Notes under the pieces: model-generated
Told to the model about the DNA's origin: nothing
The model's database searches: none
The model's input: only the letters and a program-made list of their open reading frames with translations
Translations under genes and position numbers: made by a program
Source of the DNA: a bacterium
Lineage (GTDB): Bacteria > Armatimonadota > Zipacnadia > Zipacnadales > UBA11051
Assembly: GCA_030604405.1 (NCBI GenBank)
Contig: JAUVVY010000001.1
Location: 62,001-126,000, forward strand
Length of the DNA stretch: 64,000 bases
Direction of reading: 5' to 3'
Shown: one piece after another, positions 24,826 to 62,235 of the stretch
Position numbering within the stretch: position 1 is the stretch's first letter
Layout: each line of letters starts with the position of its first letter

Positions 24826-25950
24826 CTATTCTTTACGGCGCAGGAAGGCGGGGATATCCACATCGTCTTCGTCGTAGGTGGGCACATCCTGCTCGAACGC
24901 TGGCGATGGTGTCGAGGGTGCCAGCGACGGGGCTGCAGCGGCCTCTTCAGCCAGCTCTTCCTCTGGGCGCGCGGTGGATGTAGCTTGCGGCCTGCGTCCG
25001 GCGTCAAAGCCGGTAGCCAGCACCGTAACGCGCAGTTGTCCCTCCATCGCTTCGTCAATGACCGCTCCCAGCGTCAGGTCCACGCCGTCATCGCCGCCGG
25101 CGGCTTGCTGGATGATGTTGGAGGCTTCATGAACCTGAGCCAGGCTCATGTCCGGCCCGCCGGTGACGTTAAGCAGCACGGCGGTAGCGCCCTCGATGCT
25201 GGTCTCCAGCAACACGCTGGAGATCGCCATATTTGCCGCTTCCTCAGCGCGATTGTCGCCGGAAGCCTCGCCAATGCCCATCATAGCCGTGCCGGCATCG
25301 GCCATTACCGTTCGCACGTCGGCGAAGTCGAGGTTAATCAGACCCGGAACCACGATGACTTCGCTGATGCCCTTGACGCCCTGCTGCAGCGTCATATCGG
25401 CGAGTCGGAAGGCTTCCTGCAGTGATACATCCTCATCGGCCAGGGTAAGCAGACGGTCGTTCGGGATAACTATTAGCGTGTCCACATTGGCTTTGAGCTC
25501 CTCGACGCCCTCATCGGCGATCCGGGCCCGCTTGCGACCCTCGACGGCGAAGGGTCTGGTGACCACACCGACGGTCAGAGCGCCCATTCCCTTCGATATC
25601 TGTGCCACTATTGGGCCGCCGCCTGTGCCGGTGCCCCCGCCCATGCCACACGTGATAAAGACCATGTCTGCGCCATCGAGCGCCATCAGTATCTCCTGAT
25701 GGCTTTCTTCAGCAGCAGCGCGGCCCAGGTCCGCATCGCCGCCGGTACCAAGGCCGCGTGTCAACTCTTCGCCGATTTGCAGCTTCTTATCCGCCGCAGA
25801 GAGGTCCAGAACTTGCGCGTCGGTGTTTATGGCCATATACTCCACGCCCATCAGTCCGGACTCGATCATCCGGTCCACCGCATTGGAGCCGCCGCCGCCG
25901 ATGCCAACGACGCGGATCTTAGCGTACTCCTCCACGTTCGGCCTCAGCAT
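24826..25950 (-). CDS. ftsZ: Cell division protein FtsZ
   Basis: 374-residue tubulin-like GTPase that forms the cytokinetic ring. [11 protein letters not shown] (18-28), the tubulin signature [10 protein letters not shown] (104-113), and the T7 loop [11 protein letters not shown] near 210 are all present. A variable linker leads to the C-terminal peptide [10 protein letters not shown], the docking site for division partners such as FtsA/SepF. The ATG has AGGAGG about 10 nt upstream and a consensus promoter sits 60 bp upstream. No ftsA/ftsQ or mur genes flank it, so it is outside a dcw cluster here. Confidence 0.98.
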
Positions 25951-26116: not shown

Positions 26117-26725
26117 TCAAGAATCAGAAGACGCCTCAGGGGCCACAGCCACTCTGACTCTCGCCGCCCGCAGCACCCGGTCATGCAGAACATACCCGGG
26201 TTGCACCACCGCGATGATAGTATTCGCATCCACCTCGTCACTGGGCACTGCCTCGACCGCCTCATGTAGGTCAGGGTCGAATGGCTCGCCCTCCGGGTTA
26301 ATCTGCTCGACCCCGTGGCCTTTCAGGAAGCCTTGAAGCTGGGTGAGGATCATCTCGACGCCCTTGGACACACTCTCGATATCGTCAGTGTCGGAGATGC
26401 TGGCCAGCGCCTGCTCGTAGTTATCGCTGAGCGGCAGCAGTTCGGCCAGCAGGCTTTCATTTGCATATTGCTGTCGCTGAGCCATTTCCCGGGCCGCTCG
26501 ACGGCGGTAGTTTTGCAGATCAGCCAGCGCCCGCAGGTACTTCTCGTGCGCCTCCTCGTACATCGCCTGCCAGTCCGGCTGCTCTGCAGCGCCCGGCTCT
26601 TCGGCCGGCTGCCCACCATCCTGCTGCGCCTGTGCTTCAGCGGTCTCGCCGGCGCCATCTTCGTCTGGCTGCGCGCCTGCTTCAACCCTTGCGGGAACAG
26701 GCCTATCTTCATTGTTGTCTGTCAT
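26117..26725 (-). CDS. grpE: Nucleotide exchange factor GrpE
   Basis: 202 residues from the ATG at 26725 (GAGGAG 6 nt upstream; an extended frame to 26767 lacks a site). The acidic, Gln/Glu-rich N-terminal tail (AEAQAQQDGGQPAEEP) precedes the long dimerisation helix (YLRALADLQNYRRRAAREMA) and the four-helix/beta-wing region (HGVEQINPEGEPFDPDLHEAV, PGYVLHDRVLRAARV). It releases ADP from DnaK. dnaK and dnaJ are not in the window. hrcA lies upstream on the same strand, but a 407-bp gap with a MITE-like element separates the two. Confidence 0.95.
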   Translation of the reverse strand: MTDNNEDRPVPARVEAGAQPDEDGAGETAEAQAQQDGGQPAEEPGAAEQPDWQAMYEEAHEKYLRALADLQNYRRRAAREMAQRQQYANESLLAELLPLSDNYEQALASISDTDDIESVSKGVEMILTQLQGFLKGHGVEQINPEGEPFDPDLHEAVEAVPSDEVDANTIIAVVQPGYVLHDRVLRAARVRVAVAPEASSDS

Positions 26726-26786
26726 ATATAACTCCTCGATTACCCAACGGAGCCGGCATGGCATCAATTCCCTCCGTACCGCGTGG

Positions 26787-27132: not shown

Positions 27133-28194
27133 CTACCATGTAGCGTCTTCGCCCTGAGCCAGAGCCTCGCCCAGGCTTTCGGCGACGAAAGAGACTACTG
27201 ACATGGCGTTGAGATAGTCCATGCACATCGGCCCAAGCACGGCGACGCTTCCTGCGCGCAAGCCGGTGTGAGCGTACGAGCGCGCCACCATACTGCAGCG
27301 GCGGATGCCCCTGACACGGTTCTCAGTGCCGATTGTAACAGTGACATCCGAGGCCGTGGCCGCCGACAGAAGTGCCTCGCGCAGCAGCGCATGGTGGTCG
27401 AGGGTTTCAATCAACTCGCGCAGGTTGTTGGCCTGCTGGAATTCGGGCTCGCGAAGAATGTAGCTGGTGCCATCCACGTAGATATGGCGGTCCTCTTCGG
27501 CTTCAACGGCCTGCCGCAGCGCCTGGAGTAGTGTCTCGGGCAGGTTGCAGTCGGCGACTGCTGCCGCCAGGTCGGTGGTCGTAACGGTGGCCAGCTCACC
27601 GATGCACCGACCGCGGTAGATCTTGCGCAGCGCCCGGCTCAGTTTGGCGATCTGCTCGGCTGTTAGCGGCTCGGGGCTGCGCAGCAATTGCTGCACCTGC
27701 TTGCCCGTGTCAGTCTTGTAGGTCAGCAGCAGATTGTTGCTGCTGACTGGTGATACGGCTATGTCATCGAAGCACTCTTGTATGCGGGAGGGGCTCATAA
27801 CCACGCTGGGATAGCCGGTCAGCGCCGCCAGACTACGGGAAGTAGCCCGCATCAGCGTCCGCGGGCGTCCCTTCAGGCGCCGACATTCGCTCTCGTAGAT
27901 GCGTGAGGCCTCGCTGTGTTCGGGCAGTGGGCCTTCGCGCACTTCGTTCACGTACAGCCGGTAAGCCTCGGGCAACGGCACTCGCCCCGAGGAGGTATGG
28001 GGCTGGCACAGGTAAGACGCCTGCTCCAGATAGGCCATCTCGTTGCGGATGGTGGCGGTGCTGACGCTGAAGCCGTACTTTTCTTTGAGCTGTTTGGAGC
28101 CTACCGCCGCCTTGGTAGCGATATGCTCTCGCACCACAGCCATCAGTATCTCTCGTTGCCTGGCCGACAGCGGCGGGGCCGGGCTATGGCGCAT
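27133..28194 (-). CDS. hrcA: Heat-inducible transcription repressor HrcA
   Basis: 353 residues. The N-terminal winged helix is LSARQREILMAVVREHI, VGSKQLKEKYGFSVSTATIRNEM and the strongly conserved SSGRVPLPEAYRLYV; the C-terminal region is the GAF-like and dimerisation part. HrcA binds the CIRCE operator; one CIRCE is present upstream of groES at 33849. No CIRCE is seen upstream of hrcA or grpE, so hrcA may not repress itself here. GGGAGG lies 9 nt before the ATG. Confidence 0.95.
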   Translation of the reverse strand: MRHSPAPPLSARQREILMAVVREHIATKAAVGSKQLKEKYGFSVSTATIRNEMAYLEQASYLCQPHTSSGRVPLPEAYRLYVNEVREGPLPEHSEASRIYESECRRLKGRPRTLMRATSRSLAALTGYPSVVMSPSRIQECFDDIAVSPVSSNNLLLTYKTDTGKQVQQLLRSPEPLTAEQIAKLSRALRKIYRGRCIGELATVTTTDLAAAVADCNLPETLLQALRQAVEAEEDRHIYVDGTSYILREPEFQQANNLRELIETLDHHALLREALLSAATASDVTVTIGTENRVRGIRRCSMVARSYAHTGLRAGSVAVLGPMCMDYLNAMSVVSFVAESLGEALAQGEDATW

Positions 28195-28667: not shown

Positions 28668-28697
28668 TTGACAGTCTTGGCAGCCGTGTGCTATTCT
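28668..28697 (+). promoter_or_regulatory. Sigma70-like promoter upstream of rpsE
   Basis: TTGACA (6/6) at 28668-28673, 18-bp spacer, TATTCT (4/6) at 28692-28697. It would give rpsE its own transcript with a leader of about 290 nt. Confidence 0.65.
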
Positions 28698-28708
28698 GAA
28701 GCTCCGCT

Positions 28709-28990
28709 GGCTTCCTGTCTCAATAGGAAGCCGCGTAGTTTCTTGTGTCTTTACCTGTCAGGCGATATTCAGGGTACCGCAAGCCTCGGCATCGGGGGCA
28801 AAGCGAGAGCCTGATTGTAGTTGTAGTCCTGCCCGCAAGTTATTTGCAGACGAGATGCCCGCGTGGCACGAGCTTGCCCGCCATAGCTTTAGCGAAGGCG
28901 GGGCTTTCCGCAGGCCCTGCCGCGTGCGCCCTGAGCTTGTCGAAGGGCAGCCCGTGAACGCCATTTACAAACGAGAGGGATAATAAGGGT
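28709..28990 (+). promoter_or_regulatory. Long rpsE leader with 5' hairpin and dispersed repeat
   Basis: The predicted leader begins with a perfect 8-bp stem GGCTTCCT/AGGAAGCC (28709-28732). A dispersed repeat near its end (about 28902-28952) has the arms GGGCT/AGCCC around CCTGAGCTTGTCGAA. Whether the leader regulates rpsE (as ribosomal protein leaders often do) is inference; it does not match a leader motif I know. Confidence 0.4.
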
Positions 28991-29881
28991 ATGACCTACA
29001 GAGGACGGGGTCAGGAAGAACGCGATGAAATAGAAGAGCGCGTGGTCCGCATTGACCGCACGCGAAAGACCGTCAAGGGCGGGCGCATATCGTCGGTACG
29101 CGTCGTTGCTGCGGTGGGCAACGGCAAAGGCAGTGTCGGCCTCGGCGTCGGCAAGGCGCGCGACATCCCCGAGGCTATCGAGAAAGCGATCAAGCGAGCC
29201 AGGGAGAACATGATCCGCATTCCCATGGACGGCTACACGATCCCGCATCTGGTGCAGGCCAAGGTGGGAGGCGCAGTTATCTTGCTGCGTCCGGCCTCGC
29301 GCGGCACCGGGGTCGTAGCCGGCGGCGCGACCCGGCAAATTCTTGAGGTCAGCGGCATCCGCGACATCCTCACCAAATCGCTGGGCAGCGGCAACGTATT
29401 CAACCGCGCGCAAGCCTGCTTCAAGGCCCTCCAGATCTTGCACAATCCTGCTGACATCGCAGCAGAGCGGGACATGAGCGTCGAGGAGATGCTGGGCCGC
29501 ACCGTCGAGGATCCCTACGCCGAGCTCGAAGCAGAGGAAGCCGAGCAAGCTGCCGAAGAGGCTGAAGCCGAACAGGCTGCACAAGAGCCGGCAGCAGCCG
29601 AGGAGCCTGAGGCCGCAGAAGCGGCCGAAGCTCCTGAGCTTGTCGAAGCGGCCGGAGGCCCTGAGCCTGTCGAAGTGGCCGAAGCTCCTGAGCTTGTCGA
29701 AGCGGCCGAAGGTCCTGAGCCTGTCGAAGCGGCCGAAGGTCCTGAGCCTGTCGAAGTGACGGCCGAGCCTGAAGAGGGAGCCGAAGAGGCAGGAGTTGCC
29801 GGCGGGGCCGTCATTGAGGATACCATGACCGACAGCCTCACGGACCTCTTCATTGGTGATGAGAAAGACGAAGAAGACTAG
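28991..29881 (+). CDS. rpsE: 30S ribosomal protein S5 with long acidic C-terminal extension
   Basis: 296 residues; typical S5 has about 165. The S5 core is complete at about 1-170: ERVVRIDRTRKTVKGGRISS, VVAAVGNGKGSVGLGVGKA, IPHLVQAKVGGAVILLRPAS, then RQILEVSGIRDILTKSLGSGN. The extension (about 175-296) is Glu/Ala-rich and holds five 9-residue repeats (213-257: EAPELVEAA, GGPEPVEVA, EAPELVEAA, EGPEPVEAA, EGPEPVEVT), then an acidic end. The gene stands alone, away from the spc operon (no rplR, rpmD or rplO next to it), and has its own promoter and terminator. The window cannot show whether another rpsE exists elsewhere. Confidence 0.93.
   Translation: MTYRGRGQEERDEIEERVVRIDRTRKTVKGGRISSVRVVAAVGNGKGSVGLGVGKARDIPEAIEKAIKRARENMIRIPMDGYTIPHLVQAKVGGAVILLRPASRGTGVVAGGATRQILEVSGIRDILTKSLGSGNVFNRAQACFKALQILHNPADIAAERDMSVEEMLGRTVEDPYAELEAEEAEQAAEEAEAEQAAQEPAAAEEPEAAEAAEAPELVEAAGGPEPVEVAEAPELVEAAEGPEPVEAAEGPEPVEVTAEPEEGAEEAGVAGGAVIEDTMTDSLTDLFIGDEKDEED
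29627..29761 (+). repeat. Five tandem 27-bp repeats inside rpsE
   Basis: Each unit carries CCTGAGC(C/T)TGTCGAA, the same 15-base word found between genes at about 6374 and 28931 and, degenerate, in prmC at 45751 and at 59774. The period of 27 bp keeps the frame, giving 9-residue protein repeats of the form xxPE(P/L)VExx. Confidence 0.85.
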
Positions 29882-29910
29882 CTCGCGGCACCCGACCACG
29901 CCAAATCAAA

Positions 29911-29937
29911 CTGAGCCCCTGCCAGGGCTCAGTTTTC
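29911..29937 (+). terminator. Intrinsic terminator of rpsE
   Basis: CTGAGCCC-CTGCCA-GGGCTCAG stem followed by TTTT, starting 30 bp after the rpsE stop. It implies that rpsE is transcribed as a single gene. Confidence 0.75.
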
Positions 29938-30151
29938 TGTTAGCAGGAAGACGGCAGTAGGCCGACCGAGAAAAAGACTTCTCTCTGGCGCGTAGCTCGC
30001 GCTTCCCAAAAATATCGCGTGGCTCGGGCTTCCAGCCCGAGTCGTCGTTGCCGTTGCCACCAAGGGTAGGCGAGTAGTTACGAACGTCGTTCGGACCTTC
30101 AACTCCAGTTGCTCTTCGACAAGCCTCGTCAGCAAAACGCGCATGCCGTTG

Positions 30152-31108
30152 TCAAGGAATATACCCCTGCTCAACGCCCAGGCGCATCGTCTCGCGAATC
30201 GCGATGAGATAGTCGTCCACAATGTCGGCCTCGTCACACCACGGGAGGATATCGAGGAAGCCCTGGCGGCCCTCGTACGGGAAAGCCAGCGTGCCGAAGT
30301 GGACGTACAGCATCCGCACATTGCCCAGGATGCCGCTTTCCTCAGTGTCACCATAGATGTTGTCCGAGTACTGGTGGCCGAGCGCCTTGATGCGGGCCGC
30401 CGTAGCCGTGTTGATTTCGCGCAGCTTTTCACGGTACGGCTCAGAGAAGCCACGGTTCATGCAGAAGAAGTTTGAGCCGCAGGCGTGCAGGTCAATGTAG
30501 CACTCCGGCGGCTCCGCTTCCATGTATGCAAGCAACTGCTGGAACTCGACGAACAGAGTAGTGCTGACATCCACGGGCCGGTTCGCCAGGAAGCCGTCAT
30601 CGTTGAAGCGCCCGCCCAGGAAGATGATCTCATCGGGGTTGATGCCATTGGGAACGGCCTCCTCAATGGCGACAACGCTGCGGTCTTTCCGCCATGATTG
30701 GGCCAGGCCCTCGAGGCCGCCGGTAGACCAGCCGACCAGGCTGTCGGGGCAGCGGGCGCGGCCATCGGGGTTGAAAACCGGCACCACGGTGATGTCCAGC
30801 TCGTCGGCCAACCCCGCGATCTCCGGCCACGGTTTGCCCTTCAGGTCTTCGCCGTGGTCGAGGATGTGCAGCAGGTTGAAGCATGATGCCACGCTGCCCG
30901 GTTCGTGACCGTGGGTGCCGGCGATGACCCAGAGCCGCGGCCGGCCGGGATTCGGTCTTCTGATCAGATAGAGATCGCGCCCGCCGGCGGAAGTGCCGTA
31001 CTTCTCCAGCCGCTCGGCAGGCACCGCCGCGATGTGAGCGTTGATGCCGGCCTCGTCGGCCGGCCAGAAGTCGGGGAGCCTCATCTTCGCGACATATCGG
31101 GGGTCCAT
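30152..31108 (-). CDS. M14-family zinc carboxypeptidase-like protein
   Basis: About 318 residues from the ATG at 31108 (GAGAGG 10 nt upstream; another ATG at 31117 is possible). The metal motif HxxE is His66-Glu69 in AGTHGHEPGS and the distal His lies in CYIDLHACGSNF near 208. Near the C-terminus TLAFPYEGRQGF could contain the general-base Glu. This is the plan of the M14 succinylglutamate-desuccinylase/carboxypeptidase group; no signal peptide, so a cytoplasmic amidase or peptidase. Partner genes are not obvious. Confidence 0.75.
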   Translation of the reverse strand: MDPRYVAKMRLPDFWPADEAGINAHIAAVPAERLEKYGTSAGGRDLYLIRRPNPGRPRLWVIAGTHGHEPGSVASCFNLLHILDHGEDLKGKPWPEIAGLADELDITVVPVFNPDGRARCPDSLVGWSTGGLEGLAQSWRKDRSVVAIEEAVPNGINPDEIIFLGGRFNDDGFLANRPVDVSTTLFVEFQQLLAYMEAEPPECYIDLHACGSNFFCMNRGFSEPYREKLREINTATAARIKALGHQYSDNIYGDTEESGILGNVRMLYVHFGTLAFPYEGRQGFLDILPWCDEADIVDDYLIAIRETMRLGVEQGYIP

Positions 31109-31734
31109 TCGCGTCATTCCTCTCAGCAACATTGGGCGTGATTCGGCCCGCCACAAATGCCCGGGCTGCATGGTTTTTCGCCGCCGGCAGTGACAATCCT
31201 CTTTGCACATTTGCCCTGCCGAATCGCGCAGAAATGCTCAGGTCAATGCCACTGAATTGCGGGGTGGTGACATGAGCTAACTTCGCCGTAGCGCCGTTTT
31301 GTCAATTCTGCAGAGGCCTTTTTCGGCTATACCCCACAAGCAACGAAGCCCTGGTGCAGCGGGGCTGGGGGCAATAACTTGTCGTGGTATGGGGTGCTAC
31401 AAGCCGTTGCTGGGGGGGGTCAGTGCTGACCCCCTACCAGAAAAGGAATTTAGTGCCAAGCGGCCAGGAGGCCCTGAAAACGCGGGCCTTTTTGCTAGGT
31501 ATGAGGTCCGCGCGCGGGGCAGACCGGAAGACGGCACTGGGGGGGAGCACTGTGAACAAAGTGTGACAAGAAGGGTGATCAGGCCCTGCTACTGCGGGCC
31601 TCCTTACTGGTGGGGAGGTACTCTCAGCGAGAAAGGAGACGGAGCCCTTTTTTCGTCATGCGAATGGGGGAGTGTCCCGACTTGCATCGTTCTTGAAAGC
31701 GTGCTCGGCCCCCTTTTTCCCAGCATCGGCGCAC
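31109..31734. other. Gene-free stretch with several GC hairpins
   Basis: About 630 bp without a credible gene; open frames here lack start sites and family resemblance. Visible structures are GGGGTCAG-TG-CTGACCCC (about 31416-31433), a GGCCC/GGGCC stem followed by TTTTT (about 31470-31493, terminator-like on the plus strand), a second AGGCCC/GGGCCT stem (about 31581-31601), and CCCTTTTTT near 31644. The arrangement could include a small RNA with its terminator, but no known RNA family (RNase P, tmRNA, SRP, 6S) was recognised. Confidence 0.4.
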
Positions 31735-60852: not shown

Positions 60853-62235
60853 ATGCCTATCGATAGCGAGGCCCCAGGTCTGCCTAATGTCATCTACATA
60901 TTGACTGATGATCAGGGCCCCTGGGCGGCCGGCTGCTATGGCAACCATGAGATTCGCACCCCGAACATTGACCGGCTGGCCGAAAGCGGCGTGCGTTTCA
61001 GCAAGTTCTTCGTCGCCACTCCGGTCTGCTCGCCAAGCCGGGCCACTTTCCTGACCGGCCGGATCTCCTCTCAGCACGGTATCCACGACTGGCTCAGAGA
61101 TGAGAACGTGGGGCCGAAAACCAAGAATATCATAGGCGGCGAAGTCGCCTACACCGATGTCATGGGCCGGCACGGCTACACCTGCGGGATGTCGGGTAAG
61201 TGGCACATGGGCGACAGCATCAACCCGCAGCACAGTTTTGACTTCTGGTACGTCCACCAGAGAGGCGGCGGCCCGTACAACAATGCGCCCATGATCCGCG
61301 ACGGCAAGCTGATAGATGAACCTGGGTATGTCACCGACCGCATTACCGATGAGGCGCTGAATTTCATCAATGACCATCATGATGACGAGCAGCCTTTTTA
61401 CCTCAGCGTGCACTATACGGCCCCGCACAGCCCGTGGGACGGGCATCCGCAGGATATTGTGGACTCCTATGACGACTGTCCTTTCGAAACCTGCCCGCAG
61501 GAGGAGAGACATCCGGCGGCCATCAGTCTCACCGACATGTGTCTGGGCAACCGCGAGATGTTGAAGGGCTACTTCGCGGCCGTGACGGCGATGGACAACA
61601 ATGTCGGCCGCATCATAGACCGCATCGAAGAGTTGGGCTTGCGCGACAATACTCTCATCATTTTCTGCTCGGACAACGGCTTCTCATGCGGCCATCACGG
61701 CTTCTGGGGCAAGGGCAACGGCACCTGCCCTCGCAACATGTACGAGAACTCCATCATCGTGCCTTTTGTGCTCTCGCATCCGGGCCGCGTGCCACAGGGA
61801 CAGGTCAGCGACGCAATGATGTGCGCCTATGACTTCATGCCCACTCTGCTCGACTATCTCGGCATGGGCGATGACATTCCCTGGGAGCAGAACCTGCCAG
61901 GGATCAGCTTCCTGCCGAGCTGGGAAGGTAACGATCAGGACAGCCCGGACATCGTGGTCATCTATGACGAGTATGGGCCGGTACGCATGATCCGCACGCA
62001 GCAGCACAAGTACGTCGAGCGCTACCCGGATGGCCCCAACGAGCTGTGGGACCTGGTCAACGATCCGGATGAGCGCGAGAACCGTATTGATGACCCGGCG
62101 CTCACTGAGGTGATAGGCGATTTGAAGGCCCGGATGGAAGAGTGGTTCGCCAGATACGTCATACCCGACAAAGATGGCCTCAAGGAAACCCATGACGCCA
62201 GCGGCGAGCCAATTGGCAAGCACCCGAGTGCCTGA
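60853..62235 (+). CDS. Sulfatase (formylglycine type)
   Basis: 460 residues. The CxPxR modification site is Cys59-Ser-Pro-Ser-Arg63 in TPVCSPSRATFLTGR. Metal-site Asp pair is in YILTDDQGPW (19-20) and Asp-Asn in FCSDNGFSCGHHG. It would hydrolyse sulfate esters, likely on sulfated glycans, but there is no signal peptide, so action may be intracellular. A formylglycine-generating enzyme or anSME is not in the window. AAGGAG lies 8 nt before the ATG. Confidence 0.93.
   Translation: MPIDSEAPGLPNVIYILTDDQGPWAAGCYGNHEIRTPNIDRLAESGVRFSKFFVATPVCSPSRATFLTGRISSQHGIHDWLRDENVGPKTKNIIGGEVAYTDVMGRHGYTCGMSGKWHMGDSINPQHSFDFWYVHQRGGGPYNNAPMIRDGKLIDEPGYVTDRITDEALNFINDHHDDEQPFYLSVHYTAPHSPWDGHPQDIVDSYDDCPFETCPQEERHPAAISLTDMCLGNREMLKGYFAAVTAMDNNVGRIIDRIEELGLRDNTLIIFCSDNGFSCGHHGFWGKGNGTCPRNMYENSIIVPFVLSHPGRVPQGQVSDAMMCAYDFMPTLLDYLGMGDDIPWEQNLPGISFLPSWEGNDQDSPDIVVIYDEYGPVRMIRTQQHKYVERYPDGPNELWDLVNDPDERENRIDDPALTEVIGDLKARMEEWFARYVIPDKDGLKETHDASGEPIGKHPSA

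Follow-up and report, generated by a model that had tools for sequence, protein, structure and literature searches.

Few bacterial gene orders are as well conserved as that of the spc operon. Palindromic elements that sit inside genes are known from Rickettsia. In the Leuconostocaceae, rpsN lies outside spc, and a second gene copy or isoform is available there (PMC8046335). The monocistronic gene rplY, which encodes bL25, carries a hairpin before its ribosome-binding site that serves as an autogenous operator (PMC10931766). In the same review of ribosomal protein regulation, uS5 is not described as a repressor (PMC10931766), and our literature search on uS5 autoregulation found no papers.

We analyzed a window of 64,000 nucleotides (positions 62,001 to 126,000 of contig JAUVVY010000001.1, assembly GCA_030604405.1) from a 4.37-Mb draft genome of the phylum Armatimonadota, in which rpsE was present in one copy; its closest named relative is a MAG of Candidatus Zipacnadia (Armatimonadota). 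Its 296-aa product is a genuine uS5, which matched the TIGR01021 rpsE_bact model at 181 bits (cut-off 164) over residues 12–166 and contained both the N- and C-terminal S5 domains of the bacterial uS5 family. While the full core and the single copy are as in the usual spc-encoded uS5, the gene here lies outside spc throughout its class, encodes a 126-aa acidic tail and has a promoter, leader and terminator of its own. Like rpsN of the Leuconostocaceae, it is an essential ribosomal protein gene encoded away from spc, but it is present in one copy, class-wide and with its own leader. It resembles rplY as a stand-alone ribosomal protein gene with a conserved hairpin upstream of the ribosome-binding site, here a candidate operator, and differs from it in that the Shine-Dalgarno (SD) sequence, weak in rplY, is often strong (AGGAGG) and that the leader has no Rfam match (the search returned two chance matches, nothing relevant and no described ribosomal protein leader family). 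As in the Rickettsia elements, dispersed palindromic repeat sequence is found in frame within a protein gene, although here only a 16-bp core is involved, as a tandem array, and its insertion into the ORF is a candidate event. We regard the displacement of rpsE across the class, together with its dedicated leader, as the notable finding; the preliminary description of this DNA missed both the class-wide extent of the relocation and the conserved leader hairpin.

The signals surrounding rpsE (Table 1) show it to be a stand-alone unit with its own promoter-like site, start-proximal leader hairpin, ribosome-binding site and terminator-like hairpin, in line with the orphan gene and separate transcription unit that had been described. 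The terminator was not listed by a simple terminator scan because its T run is short. Both neighboring genes, hrcA (27133–28194) and an M14 peptidase gene (30152–31210), are on the minus strand. As this is the single rpsE of the genome, its product is probably incorporated into the 30S subunit. On the minus strand, an FtsZ-like ORF (24826–25950) was also found just 3' of a GrpE-like ORF (26117–26767) and hrcA, as read from their translations.

Table 1. Features of the rpsE locus and their positions in the window
Feature	Position	Strand	Details
Sigma-70 promoter-like site	28668..28697	+	TTGACA-N18-TATTCT, TG before -10
Start-proximal leader hairpin	28708..28733	+	TGGCTTCCTGT-CTCA-ATAGGAAGCCG; fold z -5.7; GC-rich
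Segment between leader hairpin and ribosome-binding site	28856..28962	+	~107 bp; dispersed element, 16-bp word at 28930-28945
rpsE (uS5)	28991..29881	+	296 aa; core residues 1-170 = 28991-29500; acidic tail residues 171-296 = 29501-29878
Tandem array of 27-bp units	29618..29756	+	five with the 16-bp word, at 29633, 29660, 29687, 29714 and 29741
C-terminal motif codons	29813..29851	+	IEDTMTDSLTDLF; TDSL[TS][DE]LF
Intrinsic-terminator-like hairpin and T run	29908..29938	+	hairpin 29908-29935, then TTTTCTG; fold z -4.5

The spc operon of the same genome (contig C74) reads S14-S8-L6-L18-[63 bp]-L30-L15-SecY and contains no S5. A second, normal rpsE in spc, which had been proposed as the observation that would overturn the orphan state, was searched for in both the genome and the operon and was absent. 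Exactly one S5 was detected in 36 of the 41 genomes of the order, and it was outside spc wherever its context could be read (~35 genomes), with neither L18 nor L30 beside it at any of the order loci examined, a few of which are on short contigs. In all 11 other order genomes fetched, the corresponding junction (L18-L30 or L18-L15) was directly observed to lack S5; L30 was not detected in one of them. Five class members belonging to other families likewise had a displaced S5, while the order L18-S5-L30 was retained in 61 of 61 distinct genomes sampled elsewhere in the phylum, the large family f25 among them. The surroundings of rpsE differ from family to family; hrcA adjoins it in one genome of another family as well as in four of the five members of the genus.

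That the orphan state or the length of the S5 frame stems from an assembly artefact, or that this copy is non-functional, is strongly disfavored and, in our judgment, extremely improbable. The genomes used all appear to be drafts and S5 was undetected in five of the 41 order genomes, but those five are drafts, so the absence probably reflects incompleteness; moreover, ~40 genomes assembled separately share the arrangement, with one copy in each and a conserved core, and the spc junction lacking S5 was observed directly. The uS5 gene is outside spc throughout the class, and rpsE would have left the operon in an ancestor of the class. In the spc operon of G031 (L300), no L30 was found by tblastn between L18 and L15, which are separated by a spacer of ~100 bp; L30 may have been lost or displaced in this genome.

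The conserved promoter and the hairpin following it first became visible in an alignment of the genus, within which the promoter site is kept; as a type, it is kept within the order. In each of the 35 order genomes whose upstream region could be read, such a promoter was followed 3–17 nt later by a stem (weak in G027), and the SD lies 9–21 nt beyond the stem in most families. The median stem score for these genomes and three class outgroups was 20.75 versus 11.5 for stretches drawn at random from the same loci; of the 38 scores, 30 were above the 95th percentile of the null. We built a covariance model from 16 leaders; because it contains promoter columns, its specificity is that of the promoter plus the hairpin. 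Its best match was rpsE in 20 genomes (43–61 bits), including some unused in model building (G005, G012, G030 and G034), and the search yielded no non-rpsE site above 29.6 bits. Family f4 was left out of the model, and most of its leaders were afterwards recovered by the search. In an alignment of 28 leaders, which was fitted to the model and so leans towards the structure, 99% of the cells were paired, and 17 both-side changes were counted versus 3.7 in shuffles (0 of 500), although the shuffle level can be exceeded by related sequences. A conserved, structured 5' leader with covariation, as used to recognize autogenous ribosomal protein leaders, is thus present upstream of rpsE.

Among a control set of 22 strong extended -10 promoters of the window genome, the rpsE hairpin had the highest score (24); most of the others were at null level, the exceptions being those of cspA-like and sat-like genes (names read from translations). 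Weak matches of the model in other genomes preceded tRNA-Asp, purA-like and lexA-like genes. A TTGACA..TGnTA promoter with a start-proximal hairpin was observed before tRNA-Asp in L263, L264, L266 and L270, and a similar combination before a purA-like gene in L267. A start-proximal hairpin is possibly a common feature of some strong promoters.

Transcription would start just before the hairpin, and the 5' leader would most likely be a post-transcriptional control site, either as an operator bound by free uS5 for autogenous repression or as a hairpin stabilizing the mRNA. Having lost its coupling to the other spc genes, rpsE would be controlled through the hairpin. By analogy with the rplY operator, uS5 itself may be the effector, and we tentatively consider, at rather less than an even chance, that the hairpin is the operator of an autogenous uS5 circuit that evolved when rpsE left spc and lost its regulation there. 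About as likely is that it is a generic 5'-end stabilizer or an initial-transcription feature of strong promoters with nothing specific to uS5. The hairpins at similar tRNA-Asp and purA promoters of relatives and those near the starts of the cspA-like and sat-like genes agree with a generic role, as does the change of stem sequence between families (GCCTCCC, GCCCCCG and GGCTTCC), although a conserved binding motif would have suited a shape-specific site better than this variation does. Against it, such hairpins are absent from most of the 22 strong promoters, rpsE is the top model match in most genomes, and the placement just ahead of the ribosome-binding site is retained in most families. An anti-SD switch through the 5' arm of the hairpin was also considered, since complementarity of at least 5 was found in 18 of 31 genomes, but was not adopted as the mechanism because the complementarity is missing in family f4. 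The hairpin is a candidate RNA regulator that is directly testable, and a class with rpsE outside spc and a covarying leader offers a natural experiment in ribosomal protein stoichiometry without operon coupling. If uS5 control through the hairpin is true, the class would illustrate how a new regulatory RNA is gained by the gene for a ribosomal protein.

The tail beyond residue 170 contains 45 D/E and a single K/R among its 126 residues, in accordance with the ~125 extra acidic residues described previously. An acidic S5 tail was found in all sampled members of the order (29–128 aa, median 50 aa, median net charge -19), compared with a median of 23.5 aa and a median net charge of -3 outside the class, and it occurs in relatives without any copy of the 16-bp word that recurs in the array. 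The alignment of S5 from relatives that had been suggested for dating the tail thus shows it to be order-wide, with the array confined to the window species and a sister species (G012); judged from these sequences, the acidic tail is an old trait of the order and the array a recent local elaboration. The AlphaFold model of the window uS5, built on a shallow alignment, has a predicted helix at residues ~177–197 and low confidence beyond residue 200. Between the window species and G012, dN/dS was 0.09 for the core and 0.38 for the tail, and the differences in tail length are whole codons. The C-terminal motif TDSL[TS][DE]LF was found in five of five members of the genus and was absent from all other aligned sequences.

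Long acidic tails are likewise a feature of uS3 in this order, and in some of them in-frame repeats are obvious. Tails of 155–212 aa with in-frame tandem repeats, such as the VEPEAV units in L211, were observed in uS3 genes of relatives (L205, L208, L211, L212 and L215), where they consist of other sequence than the S5 tail. The correlation between S3 and S5 tail lengths was not significant (rho 0.35, p 0.12). The conserved S3 C-terminus '-DVDA' was set aside as a motif, since it is probably explained by rplP downstream, whose start it overlaps. Both proteins are placed together at the mRNA entry (PMC10931766), and the uS5 tail would be a tolerated or useful acidic arm, for the most part disordered, on the side of the 30S subunit where mRNA enters; its length, as in uS3, would drift through in-frame tandem duplication.

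The five tandem 9-residue repeats claimed for the tail were recovered as 27-bp units. The claim that the tail derives in part from a dispersed repeat held in a narrower form: the word common to the array and the dispersed copies is 16 bp (CCTGAGCYTGTCGAAG) rather than 15 bases, the palindromic flanks are absent from the tail, and the acidic tail is order-wide and older, while the array arose late, with one sister species only. The word occurs 69 times in the window genome and 70 times in G012, and not at all in three other genus members; reversed-pattern controls likewise gave zero. Within the window, CCTGAGCTTGTCGAAG had 10 matches at up to 3 mismatches versus 0.57 expected. Dispersed copies have a GC[word]GGC setting inside a larger palindrome, and those sampled were mostly intergenic, as had been reported, or in spurious N-terminal extensions of genes. 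The five tail copies match these over the 16-bp core but lack the GC..GGC palindrome around it, and the full element (core plus palindromic flanks) is absent from the rpsE ORF, its flanked copy at this locus being that in the leader. A literature search for the word as text gave only unrelated matches, to one fragment.

We prefer, with slightly better than even confidence, the reading that the word was captured from the dispersed element and then duplicated in tandem and in frame, the capture itself being plausible but not proven. Alternatively, and with a probability a little short of even, the array arose solely through internal tandem duplication of codons of the acidic tail, and the match to the word is convergence. 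The missing palindrome is in keeping with convergence, as are a degenerate unit without the word ahead of the array, the three units of the G012 tail, each one or two bases off the word, and the uS3 tails that lengthen through unrelated in-frame repeats. It accounts less readily for the exact match to both Y variants of the word, five times over, and for the two species with the array being the only sampled genus members rich in dispersed copies.

The segment between the leader hairpin and the ribosome-binding site is flanked by 14-nt near-identical direct repeats (28842–28855 and 28963–28976), is lacking in three other genus members and has a shorter version in G012. It looks like an insertion with target duplication as the presumed mechanism, by which the dispersed palindromic repeat whose core overlaps the tail array would also have entered the leader. 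Degenerate dispersed-repeat-like sequence (CAGCAAGCTCAGGGC) was also observed between the L6 and L18 genes of the spc operon itself (L034:8640–8720).

As a joint explanation, we find it reasonably probable that an ancestor of the class already had rpsE moved out of spc, that the gene is controlled through the hairpin and that its acidic arm drifts by duplication. The acidic tails grown from repeats on both uS3 and uS5 suggest that the 30S subunit of this lineage has a surface feature as yet unexplored. At the N-terminus, the S5 of G001 (L184) has an extension of Gly-Pro-rich repeats (GPGGPGGSQRGG).
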